From positions 1 through 64,000 of the forward strand of contig BDTT01000131.1 of NCBI GenBank assembly GCA_002897995.1: DNA of 64,000 bases. Direction: 5' to 3'. Shown piece after piece: positions 1-46,485 of the stretch. This stretch comes from a bacterium BMS3Bbin10. GTDB lineage: Bacteria; Pseudomonadota; Alphaproteobacteria; Rhizobiales; Methyloligellaceae. Position numbers and translations under genes: made by a program. The notes beneath the pieces were generated by a model. That model did no database searches. It saw only the letters and a program-made list of their open reading frames with translations, and was not told the origin of the DNA. The first letter of the stretch is position 1. Every line of letters starts with the position of its first letter.

Positions 1-505
1 ACCGAGCGCAGCGAGGCAAGCGCGAATGCGCGCCGCCCGGTCAGGGCGCGCCCGCGCAGGCCCTGCCGTAGGCAGGAATAGCCGTGAGCGAAGACATCTC
101 AACCGAGCGCAGCGAGGCAAGCGCGAATGCGCGCCGCCCGGTCAGGGCGCGCCCGCGCAGGCCCTGCCGTAGGCAGGAATAGCCGTGAGCGAAGACATCT
201 CAACCGAGCGCAGCGAGGCAAGCGCGAACGCGCGCCGCCCGGTCAGGGCGCGCCCGCGCAGGCCCGTCCGCAGGACGGAACAGCCGTGAGCGAAGACATC
301 TCAACCGAGCGCAGCGAGGCAAGCGCGAATGCGCGCCGCCCGGTCAGGGCGCGCCCGCGCAGGCCCTGCCGGAGGCAGGATTAGCCGTGAGCGAAGACAT
401 CTCAACCGAGCGCAGCGAGGCAAGGCCGAACGGCCGCCGCCCGGTCAGGGCGCGCCCGCGCAGGCCCTGCCGGAGGCAGGATTAGCCGTGAGCGAAAGAG
501 TCTTG
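1..505. repeat. Five-copy 101-bp tandem repeat with three hairpins per unit
   Basis: Units start near 1, 102, 203, 304 and 405, head to tail with no spacers; the array may continue left of the window. Each unit holds a GCGC-GAAT-GCGC hairpin (unit bases 20-31), a CGCCC-GGTCA-GGGCG hairpin (34-48) and a CCTGCC-GTA-GGCAGG hairpin (62-76). In unit 3 (264-278) the last stem reads CCGTCC/GGACGG, and in unit 5 (424-435) the first stem reads GGCC/GGCC, so both stems change by paired, compensating substitutions. The period is not a multiple of three, so open frames through it are unlikely to be genes. Its right end abuts the 3' end of the gamma-glutamyltransferase gene. Confidence 0.9.
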
Positions 506-526
506 AGCGAAAAAACCACCCGCATC

Positions 527-2065
527 TCACGCCAATACCACGCAACCTTCCCGTCTCGGATCGCCCGCGCCCTCCAGCCGCCCGTTTCCGTCCCTGCGGG
601 CGCTATGCACGCCGCCGAAGAACAGATTTGCCTCCGGCCAGCCATGAGCCTCGGGGTAGGCCTCCAGCAGCGCGGCGCGCTCATCCTCATTGAAGGCGAT
701 CTCCCAGGGCGCTTCTTCGAAGCTTACCGCGCTGCCGCGCTCCACATGCAGCCGCGCCGCGTTGATCGCATCCTCCAGGCCCATATTCCTGTCGAACAGG
801 TTGACGGCCACTTGCAGGATGGCGGTGCGGATGCGGTTCGACCCGCCTGAACCGAGCGCGGTAAGGGCGCCGTCGCGGCTCAGGGCAATTGTCGGCGCCA
901 TCATGGTGGAAAGCCGCGTGCCTGGCTCCCACAGGTGAAAGCCGCCCGGGTTCAGATCCTCCTCGCCCAGCATGTTGTTGAGCATGAAGCCGCACCCCTT
1001 CACCATATGTCCGTTGCCCTCGCCATTGGTGATTGTGGCCGCCGCCGCATTGCCTTCAGCGTCGATGATGGAAATATGCGTGGTGCCGCGCGTCGCGGGC
1101 GCGTGCCCGGCGAGGGCCTTGAGATGGCTTTCGATGGTCGCATCCTGAACGATTTCGTGCAGGGCCTGCCCGCGGGCCATGCGCACGGTGTTGGTCTCCT
1201 CCATGATGCGCGCCAGCAGCACCGGGTCCGGCGCGCCGCCTTCAGGGAGCAATTTTTCCAGCAGCGCCAGCCCGAAGGCGATCAATGCCCCGCTGGCCGC
1301 GGGCACCGGGTTCAGAAGCAGCTCGTGGCCGCGATAGCGCCATGCGAGGGGGACGCGCCGCTCCACCGTGTAGCCTTTCAGATCTTCCAGGTTCAGATGG
1401 CCGCCAAGCTCACGCGACTGCGCCGTTATGGCCTGCGCCACCTCGCCCTCGGTAAACAGCCTCGGCCCCTCGCGGGCCAGGGTGTCGAGCGTGTCGGAAA
1501 CTTCCGCGTTCCGGTATGTGTCGCCCGCGCGGAGCAGCTTCTCATCCGGCGCGAAATAGCGCCGCGCGGAAGGGGTGGCCGTCAGGATCGGCGCGACGAC
1601 GGTGTAAAGATAGGCGTGCAGAGCGGTGATGGTGACGCCGTCCCGCGCGGCCATGACGGCGGGTTCCAGCAGCCGCGTCATGGGCAGGCGCCCGAGATCG
1701 TCATGGATGGCGTACAGCCCGGGAACGAACCCCGGAACGGCAGCCGAGCCGGCGCCGATATGAAATTCCTGGGTGGCCGGGCCGAAGTCCGCATTGATGC
1801 CGTAGAATTCGATCTCGTCCGGGTTGCGTTTGGCGGCAGGCGTCTGGGCGAAGAAATCGTAGCAGATCGAGGTCCTTGAGCCCGCCGGGCGGGCCATCAC
1901 GAACCCGCCCCCGCCAAGGGAGGAGAAGACGAATTCCGGCACGGTCGCCGCCGCCATTGCGGCAATGGCCGCATCGAAAGCGTTGCCGCCCTCGCGCAAC
2001 ACTTCCGCCGCCGCCTCCGCCGTCACCTTGTGGCCGGCGGCCACGACTCCTTTTGGGTCTTTCAT
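527..2065 (-). CDS. Gamma-glutamyltransferase (GGT) family protein, no signal peptide
   Basis: A 512-residue Ntn-hydrolase of the gamma-glutamyltranspeptidase family, which cleaves or transfers gamma-glutamyl groups from glutathione-like compounds. The family's autocatalytic cleavage and nucleophile motif is present as GTTHIS, with the likely nucleophile at Thr328, and GGGGF near residue 51 and the LSTMMAPTI stretch also fit. The N-terminus (MKDPKGVVAAGHKVTAEAA) begins directly in the catalytic fold, so unlike the periplasmic E. coli enzyme this one should be cytoplasmic. The start at 2065 is the only sensible one because the conserved N-terminal segment begins there. It is divergent from the sugar dehydrogenase gene and ends beside the 101-base repeat array. 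Confidence 0.88.
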   Translation of the reverse strand: MKDPKGVVAAGHKVTAEAAAEVLREGGNAFDAAIAAMAAATVPEFVFSSLGGGGFVMARPAGSRTSICYDFFAQTPAAKRNPDEIEFYGINADFGPATQEFHIGAGSAAVPGFVPGLYAIHDDLGRLPMTRLLEPAVMAARDGVTITALHAYLYTVVAPILTATPSARRYFAPDEKLLRAGDTYRNAEVSDTLDTLAREGPRLFTEGEVAQAITAQSRELGGHLNLEDLKGYTVERRVPLAWRYRGHELLLNPVPAASGALIAFGLALLEKLLPEGGAPDPVLLARIMEETNTVRMARGQALHEIVQDATIESHLKALAGHAPATRGTTHISIIDAEGNAAAATITNGEGNGHMVKGCGFMLNNMLGEEDLNPGGFHLWEPGTRLSTMMAPTIALSRDGALTALGSGGSNRIRTAILQVAVNLFDRNMGLEDAINAARLHVERGSAVSFEEAPWEIAFNEDERAALLEAYPEAHGWPEANLFFGGVHSARRDGNGRLEGAGDPRREGCVVLA

Positions 2066-38823: not shown

Positions 38824-39396
38824 ATGATCAAGGATAAGCGCGGGACAAAAAGACTTTGTGAAAGTTGCGGCAAGAAGTTTTACGACCTGGGCCGCGACCC
38901 CACCGTCTGTCCCATATGCGATGCGCCCTTCATCATCGAAAAGCCGAAACCCAAGCCGAAACCGAAGGCGGCGCCCGCGCCGGCGGATAAAGTGGCGGAT
39001 AAAGTGGCGGAACCAATCGCCGATGCCGCGCTTGCGCCTGAAGACGCCGCACTTGCGCCTGAAGACGCCGCACTTGCGCCTGAAGACGCCGCACTTGCGC
39101 CTGAAGACGCCGCACTTGCGCCTGAAGACGCCGCACTTGCGCCTGAAGACGCCGCGCCTGCGCCTGAAGATGCCGCGCCTGCGCCAGCGCCGGAACCTGA
39201 ATTCGTCAGCCTCGAAGATGCGGCCGAGGAGGAGGAGGGCGACGATGAAGCCAAGCTTGCCGATCTCGGCGACGATGAGGCGGATATTCCGCCCGATGAC
39301 AATCAGGATGTCTTCCTTGAAGACGATGAGGAGGATGGCGAATCCAAACTGACCGAGATCATAGGCGCGCCCATCGAAACCAAGGACGAAACCTGA
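38824..39396 (+). CDS. TIGR02300 (FYDLN acid) family protein with seven-residue repeats
   Basis: A 190-residue acidic protein of a family found in alphaproteobacteria and of unknown function. The N-terminus has a likely zinc ribbon with Cys pairs in CESCGKKFYDLG and CPIC (residues 12-33). After a Lys/Pro linker there are eight tandem copies of (E)DAA(L/P)AP at about residues 67-122, encoded by a near-perfect 21-base DNA repeat (39020-39185). The C-terminal third is strongly acidic. The gene is divergent from aroA, with a 200-base gap between them. The repeat number probably varies between strains. Confidence 0.85.
   Translation: MIKDKRGTKRLCESCGKKFYDLGRDPTVCPICDAPFIIEKPKPKPKPKAAPAPADKVADKVAEPIADAALAPEDAALAPEDAALAPEDAALAPEDAALAPEDAALAPEDAAPAPEDAAPAPAPEPEFVSLEDAAEEEEGDDEAKLADLGDDEADIPPDDNQDVFLEDDEEDGESKLTEIIGAPIETKDET
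39020..39185. repeat. 21-bp tandem repeat, about eight copies, within the TIGR02300 gene
   Basis: The unit GAAGACGCCGCACTTGCGCC plus one base recurs almost without change, then drifts to Pro-coding versions in the last two copies. Because 21 is a multiple of three, all three plus-strand frames stay open through it. Confidence 0.9.
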
Positions 39397-46035: not shown

Positions 46036-46485
46036 ATGAAGTTGCGTAACCTTGCCGTCATATTTGCGATTGTCTTTGCCGCGCTGTTTTTCAGGTCGAA
46101 TGACGTGCAGGCAGGCGGGGATATGTCCGCTGGCGAGCCTGAGGGCAATGCTGGAGTTGAGCGCGCCCCTTATCCACCCGAACAATACGGCCCCCCTTAT
46201 CCACGCGAACAATACGGCCGTCCTTATCCGCGCGAACAATACCGCCCCCCTTATCCGCGCGAACAATACCGCCCCCCTTACGGGTACGGATACGGATATG
46301 GGTACGGATATGGGTACAGGCGTGGGTACGATTATGAACGCACCTATGTTTTCGGGAGCTACTATCGGCCCTACCGAACGCATTATTATTCATACTCCTA
46401 CCCAAGTCCCAGGCCTTACCGCAGAGATACTCTCCGCTCCTTGCAGGGGCTACTTCTGCCGTTGCTGATATTTGGCGGGCTGTAA
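46036..46485 (+). CDS. Secreted YPREQY-repeat, Tyr/Gly/Pro-rich protein
   Basis: A 149-residue protein with a signal peptide (residues 1-26, ending DVQAGG). The ATG follows GGTGGAGG. The mature part has four tandem nine-residue units of the form PYPREQYRP, encoded by a 27-base DNA repeat (about 46168-46276), then a GYGYGYGYGYGY run and more Tyr/Arg-rich sequence, ending in a hydrophobic LLLPLLIFGGL. No known family is recognised. Such composition suggests a surface, matrix or mineral-binding protein; that is inference. Confidence 0.7.
   Translation: MKLRNLAVIFAIVFAALFFRSNDVQAGGDMSAGEPEGNAGVERAPYPPEQYGPPYPREQYGRPYPREQYRPPYPREQYRPPYGYGYGYGYGYGYRRGYDYERTYVFGSYYRPYRTHYYSYSYPSPRPYRRDTLRSLQGLLLPLLIFGGL

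Follow-up and report, generated by a model that had tools for sequence, protein, structure and literature searches.

REP sequences are defined by a tetranucleotide tag, GTAG or CGTC, at the foot of their hairpin (PMC3733652); their doublets are intergenic, occur in tandem clusters and are inverted around a short spacer, with compensatory changes in the spacer hairpin (PMC3116915). The BOX elements of pneumococcus are modular as well: their hairpin modules are repeated in tandem a variable number of times, and some of the elements are expressed; the text of that report makes no mention of compensatory change (PMC3049150). Among the alphaproteobacteria, Br-REP1 is made up of three palindromes and lies in the overlapping 3′ UTRs of convergent genes (PMC5082802), and the intervening sequences of 23S helix 9 contain palindromes and repeated motifs, with ends described as typical of mobile elements (PMC2743711).

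The repeat described below was found at the very beginning of the window, that is, the whole stretch of 64,000 nucleotides that was analysed, from an alphaproteobacterium of the family Methyloligellaceae. Positions 1-505 consist of five head-to-tail units of 101 bp (Table 1). The initial annotation had described the segment in these terms, and both Tandem Repeats Finder (1-496, period 101, 4.9 copies, 94% matches) and the comparison of the units confirm it. The two paired changes that it had singled out, CCTGCC/GGCAGG to CCGTCC/GGACGG in unit 3 and GCGC/GCGC to GGCC/GGCC in unit 5, are present and preserve Watson-Crick pairing. More generally, unit 3 differs from unit 1 at 7 positions (4 in stems), unit 4 at 2 (none in stems) and unit 5 at 13 (4 in stems), and each of the 8 stem changes is accompanied by a changed partner with which it still forms a Watson-Crick pair. 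The statement that the copies are nearly identical except in their stems was slightly overstated, in that 14 of the 22 differences (3, 2 and 9 in units 3, 4 and 5, respectively) fall at unpaired positions. The genome, of 3.18 Mb, is distributed over 137 contigs, and the array starts at base 1 because contig C131 starts there; the number of its units may be mis-assembled. The reading frame that follows the array resembles, we presume, a gamma-glutamyltransferase. Elsewhere in the window there are a 21-bp tandem repeat of 7.7 copies (39025-39185) and a 27-bp one of 4.4 copies (46162-46280). An intrinsic terminator, meaning a hairpin followed by a T run, was considered for the array and rejected, as no such site was found on either strand of window positions 1-700, where shuffled sequences lead one to expect 0.6.

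Table 1. Coordinates of the array, its hairpins, the adjacent reading frame and the inserted repeats; positions refer to the window unless a locus is named
Feature	Coordinates	Strand	Description
Unit 1	1..101	+	H2 GCGC, H3 GCCC, H4 CCTGCC-GTA-GGCAGG; innermost, adjoins contig end
Unit 2	102..202	+	Same sequence as unit 1
Unit 3	203..303	+	H4 CCGTCC-GCA-GGACGG
Unit 4	304..404	+	H4 CCTGCC-GGA-GGCAGG
Unit 5	405..505	+	Outermost; H2 GGCC-GAAC-GGCC; tail diverged
Unit 1 hairpin H1	2..16	+	CC-GA-GC-GCA-GC-GA-GG; tandem G.A/A.G mismatches
Unit 1 hairpin H2	20..31	+	GCGC-GAAT-GCGC
Unit 1 hairpin H3	35..47	+	GCCC-GGTCA-GGGC
Unit 1 helix H5	53..90	+	CGC-GCA-GGC (53-61) with GCC-GTGA-GCG (81-90); H4 inside
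Unit 1 hairpin H4	62..76	+	CCTGCC-GTA-GGCAGG
512-aa reading frame	527..2065	-	Stop faces the array, 21 bp between
CTCAAGYAGCGNAGCGGTAGG-type inserted repeats	L024 835-970; L143 208-341; L144 1626-1753; L193 1230-1353		

Alignment of 32 units of this genome (A1) resolves the unit into four short hairpins in a row (H1 to H4), with a further helix, H5, enclosing H4. These units were taken from 46 listed reference units, leaving out 10 of a second type (B, see below), 1 duplicate and 3 further A units (in L012, L014 and L023), of which two contain a G.T cell; the reference list itself omitted 9 of the genome's 55 tails, those with no parsable H1. In these units, H1 has the form CC-GA-stem-loop-stem-GA-GG, in which the two GA face each other as mismatches, and its loop is frequently GNA; the H2 stem, GCGC or GGCC, mostly surrounds GAAY; H3 takes forms that include GCCC, GCGC and GGCC; and H4 is often CCNNCC around GNA or a similar loop. 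In 134 copies from relatives (alignment A2), the facing GA/GA of H1 is found 80 times, a paired GA/TC 16 times and a gap 10 times, and the internal loop of H5, GNA/GNGA, is conserved in 132. Some unpaired positions are nearly invariant, such as the CA.. between H1 and H2 and, in the H5 loop, the G and the GA. The stems exist in many perfectly paired alleles: 10 for H2 (121 of 131 copies), 11 for H3 (121 of 132) and 17 for H4 (55 of 93 gap-free copies at the model columns, where H4 stems of other length are out of register).

The B form is an element of about 150 bp in which the common H2-H5 part lies between two other hairpins. It occurs on contigs C14, C22, C35, C43, C50, C66, C86, C89, C108 and C117 (L027-L036); the terminal hairpins are present and several of these elements have CTAG at their ends. 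In L031 and L033 the end of the B element is adjoined by the same sequence, GGGTCTGTGGACATT, perhaps the end of an insertion sequence, and one A array (L015, on C122) terminates in a hairpin similar to the terminal ones of B. The H5 of B copies reads GAC/GTC in 9 of 10 cases, as opposed to GGC/GCC in A, which is again a paired change; the tenth reads GAC/GCC.

The pairing is maintained well beyond the array. In A1, 96.5% of the cells pair and 10 of the 27 pairs show two-sided changes, against at most 36.8% and 2 pairs for slid pairings. In A4, which comprises 57 matches of the same genome taken without the unit selection of A1, the figures are 97.8% and 19 of 25 pairs, with a score of 0.402 versus at most 0.048. 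The copies from relatives in A2, a sample given by the fetched part of the matching loci, have 93.5% of cells paired and 22 of 25 pairs changed on both sides, and their covariation score is 0.458 versus 0.108 in shuffles and at most 0.047 in slid pairings; of its 3222 cells 208 are unpaired, 98 of which belong to two pairs in the internal loop of H5. A set of 21 further copies, 20 of them unused for either model (L210 shares its coordinates with L162 of A2), gives 93.3%, 19 of 25 pairs and 0.620 versus at most 0.065. Finally, 12 distinct sequences from rRNA-operon loci, a set that also takes in L271, L272 and L277, score 0.418 versus 0.044. In A4, A2 and these last two sets, pairing and covariation exceed those of shuffled alignments as well as those of slid pairings. 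The alignments A2-A5 were fitted to a structure model, which favours pairing; the slid pairings and the spread of stem alleles argue that this fitting is not the main cause of the result. The copies are related, so that shuffle counts overstate their independence. The fold predicted by RNAalifold for A1 was dropped; only 7 of its 14 consensus pairs belong to the proposed structure, which counts against the latter. An apparent avoidance of equal H2 and H3 within a unit (8 of 161, versus 24.3 in within-genome shuffles) was also dropped, since distinct haplotypes give 5 of 55 versus 6.2.

The element is dispersed. BLAST with the array yields 38 matches in its own genome and a covariance model (R1) 67, B form included, so that the existence of copies elsewhere in the genome, on which the initial annotation had made its proposal depend, is established. 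R1 matches occur in at least 36 of 101 genomes, this one included; genome counts are lower bounds, as 42, 11 or 10 candidates were scored per genome in the samples of relatives, class and phylum, respectively. Within the genus, 3 of 7 other genomes have matches (at least 31 in the sister genome G006, at least 7 in G003 and at least 2 in G007); under stricter filters, with 42 candidates scored in each, R1 found no match in the other 4, three of which have one partial match each by BLAST. Outside the genus, matches reach at least 41 per genome, and G087 has at least 40. In the class samples at least 12 of 385 genomes match, and with a wider model (R2) at least 19 of 398 genomes of the phylum sample do, all in the class to which the window belongs. 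Named genomes match in 9 of 40 cases with R1 and in 9 of 20 with R2; they include two Nitratireductor, two Mesorhizobium, Rhizobium leguminosarum and metagenome-assembled genomes titled Neorhizobium and Marinicaulis. With respect to the RIME and Bru-RS elements, R2 has a single match in R. leguminosarum (G112) and none in either A. tumefaciens B6 or Brucella tritici.

The family could not be matched to any named one. A blastn search of one unit against plasmids and phages gave no match, and Rfam 15 has none over the array at gathering score, the best sub-threshold scores being those of Proteo-phage-1 (16.2 of 42 bits) and sX6 (12.1 of 40); neither was any Rfam match found over an element at 6 loci of this genome and 12 of relatives. 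No recognisable description of the four-hairpin element was found in the literature outside subscription papers. As for other sequences near the copies, an Rfam match to ffh sRNA (L166 1552-1604; 38.2 bits, gathering 35) adjoins a six-unit array; another short palindromic repeat (about CTCAAGYAGCGNAGCGGTAGG, with variants) seems, in three genomes, to have been inserted into units at or near H3 or H4 (Table 1); and three A elements (L017, L018 and L022) adjoin another dispersed sequence, about GGAGCAAGTTTG.

The layout of the copies is that of two arms. Among 90 pairs of neighbours within 400 bp, 33 are divergent (-+), 29 are ++, 28 are -- and none is convergent (+-); in other words, reversed units, a short core and forward units follow one another, and the arms point outward from the core. 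Facing units are alike in H2 in 3 of 30 pairs (11.7 in shuffles) and in H1 in 1 of 30 (6.9), rarer than shuffled; for H3 (6 of 30 versus 8.7) and H4 (7 of 30 versus 6.1) there is no significant departure from the shuffles. The 30 pairs, of the 33, are those of genomes with at least 3. Tandem neighbours, for their part, are alike in H1 in 29 of 48 cases (versus 18.9) and in H4 in 23 of 48 (versus 13.4). The unlikeness of facing units could go back to a founding doublet whose two units already differed, or it could be kept to stop the arms from forming one long palindrome.

Being intergenic, in tandem clusters and arranged as an inverted doublet with a short spacer, the element resembles REP, REPIN and BIME. 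It differs from REP/REPIN in that its unit has four hairpins and about 95-101 bp, REP being one palindrome of 20-40 bp, in that the facing arms carry different H1 and H2, and in that the conserved columns of the unit contain no GTAG or CGTC tag. With BOX it shares a modular build of tandem hairpin modules variable in number; BOX, however, has the order A-B-C and another host, and here there are two inverted arms. The published consensus of Br-REP1 and Br-REP2 is different, and R2 has 0 matches in three Bradyrhizobium genomes (L087, L089 and L091).

Comparison with G006 places the window array in this scheme. The ortholog in G006 is bordered by the window flank at one end and by that of contig C72 at the other, which makes the array one arm of a dispersed element with inverted arms. 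G006 holds the element at five loci of the window's genome (C131+C72, C87+C47, C129, C24 and C121), and at all five the element is kept and unit number and stems differ. Specifically, C131+C72 has 5+3 units, versus 2+3 in G006, and the outermost H4 of C87/C47, which is CCTGCC/GGCAGG on the left and CCTGCC/GGCGGG (one G.T) on the right, is CCCGCC/GGCGGG on both sides in G006. No clean empty site was seen at the two sites compared, where relatives hold other DNA: at C87/C47 the element is absent from G005 and G007, which carry a 156-aa reading frame there, and at C26 other DNA of about 900-1300 bp occupies the site in relatives. The initial annotation had proposed that either the folded form is selected or stems are exchanged as modules; the family-wide pairing and the turnover at orthologous loci support both, and the homologues do not show the random stem changes, regardless of pairing, that would have spoken against it.

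With regard to genomic position, 26 of 36 flanking genes called by a GC3 heuristic end towards the element and 10 away from it (16 versus 8 in this genome and 10 versus 2 in G006, at loci that are partly orthologous). One copy in this genome lies in the 23S-5S rRNA spacer, sense to the rRNA, and among 26 further loci tested eight have a copy in such a spacer with both rRNA markers, all of them antisense. Judging from 23S landmarks, we take another copy (L272) to lie just before the 23S 5′ end, and that on an R. leguminosarum contig (L271) to lie in the helix-9 region of the 23S. Helix-9 intervening sequences have palindromes and repeated motifs as well, and this one family match, which is weak (48.8 bits) and tentatively placed, would lie in their region; most copies in the window's genome, however, are outside rRNA. 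Direct pairs 7-9 kb apart in four genomes were considered as the ends of a mobile element and rejected, as they flank rRNA operon sequence instead.

Single-sequence folding of unit 1 is ordinary (z -0.90 as RNA; z -1.12 as DNA, minus strand), and so the case for the fold rests on comparison and not on energy. Mean pair probabilities of the proposed helices in the units of this genome, computed as RNA, are modest (H1 0.18, H2 0.50, H3 0.47, H5 0.42, H4 0.77). Folding energy was of no help in choosing the strand: with RNA parameters it is the minus strand that folds slightly better (the + strand is lower in 57 of 165 cases; Wilcoxon p 0.0015), and with DNA parameters there is no difference (+ lower in 83 of 165). 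Sheared G.A pairs of H1 and H5, however, would form on the + strand only, and for this reason we infer that the + strand of the unit is the folded one. The folded molecule may be RNA or single-stranded DNA; a cruciform of both strands seems less likely, given that the conserved G.A features are confined to one of them.

On balance, the data lead us to prefer, with some reserve, a non-autonomous mobile repeat with a REPIN-like layout, whose fold is maintained and whose stems are replaced as modules. On each side of a short core, units follow one another head to tail and point outward; the + strand fold of the unit would be maintained; and whole stems would be exchanged through copying from unit to unit and from arm to arm, so that both sides would change together. 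The element would spread into intergenic sites, more often at gene 3′ ends, and into rRNA-operon spacers, and the fold would be needed either for its mobilisation or for its tolerance in transcripts. No mobilising machinery was found. A REP/REPIN of the ordinary kind, mobilised by a Y1 tyrosine transposase (RAYT), would fit the inverted doublets, and Y1_Tnp is enriched in element-positive genomes (12 of 36, versus 6 of 65 element-negative ones; Fisher p 0.005). Nevertheless, this is highly improbable, given that Y1_Tnp gives no match in 24 of the 36 positive genomes, including G006 and G087 (both listed as 97% complete), a further departure from REP/REPIN, and that the single Y1 gene of the window's genome (L056 962-1630) is flanked by different repeats, of GGGGACAGTTTACTTAATT type, with no four-hairpin element seen beside it.

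Two other explanations were considered. The element might be a structured RNA module useful to the host, transcribed at 3′ ends or in pre-rRNA (for example as a substrate of RNase III or as an exonuclease stop) and copied for its usefulness. The excess of genes ending towards it and the covarying copies in the rRNA operons of this genome and its relatives point in this direction, as does the predominance of G.T over A.C mismatches outside the two pairs of the H5 internal loop (32 versus 14, binomial p 0.011). This predominance is lost when those pairs are included (32 versus 27, p 0.60), however, and G.T occupies 1.1% of the family's cells (32 of 2956) versus 7.9% (27 of 343, with A.C 0) in 15 tRNAs of the fetched loci, unlike ordinary RNA. 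As the distribution within the genus is also patchy, and the eight 23S-5S copies of other genomes are antisense where that of this genome is sense, we regard such a module as rather unlikely. Alternatively, nothing may be selected: template switching during replication of short inverted repeats, a process proposed for RNA hairpins (PMC8794818), would perfect and rewrite the stems of neutral repeats. Stems do seem to change in whole steps, with multi-base jumps and 597 two-sided versus 27 one-sided changes among the standard cells of the 134 copies, and at two loci, C87/C47 and C24, the interior of the element aligns with G006 better in the reverse orientation and its flanks align in the direct one, as expected of arm switching or recombination. 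Yet the same process would turn the G.A mismatches of H1 and the H5 loop into Watson-Crick pairs, and both are conserved in most copies; the nearly invariant unpaired positions are left unexplained as well, which makes this explanation an unlikely one. More speculative, and quite unlikely in our estimate, is a bacterial counterpart of SINEs, that is, a structured RNA module common to processed rRNA-operon spacers (23S-5S, 16S-23S and helix 9) and to the dispersed copies, spreading through an RNA or single-stranded intermediate, with the arms kept unlike so that units fold singly.

The array at the start of the window belongs to a dispersed, probably mobile repeat family with a real and maintained fold. 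The element offers a large natural set of stems that have been rewritten many times within and between genomes, and it can therefore be used to test selection against template switching as the source of compensatory change. Moreover, it may provide an origin for some of the rRNA intervening sequences, whose ends have been described as resembling those of mobile elements (PMC2743711).
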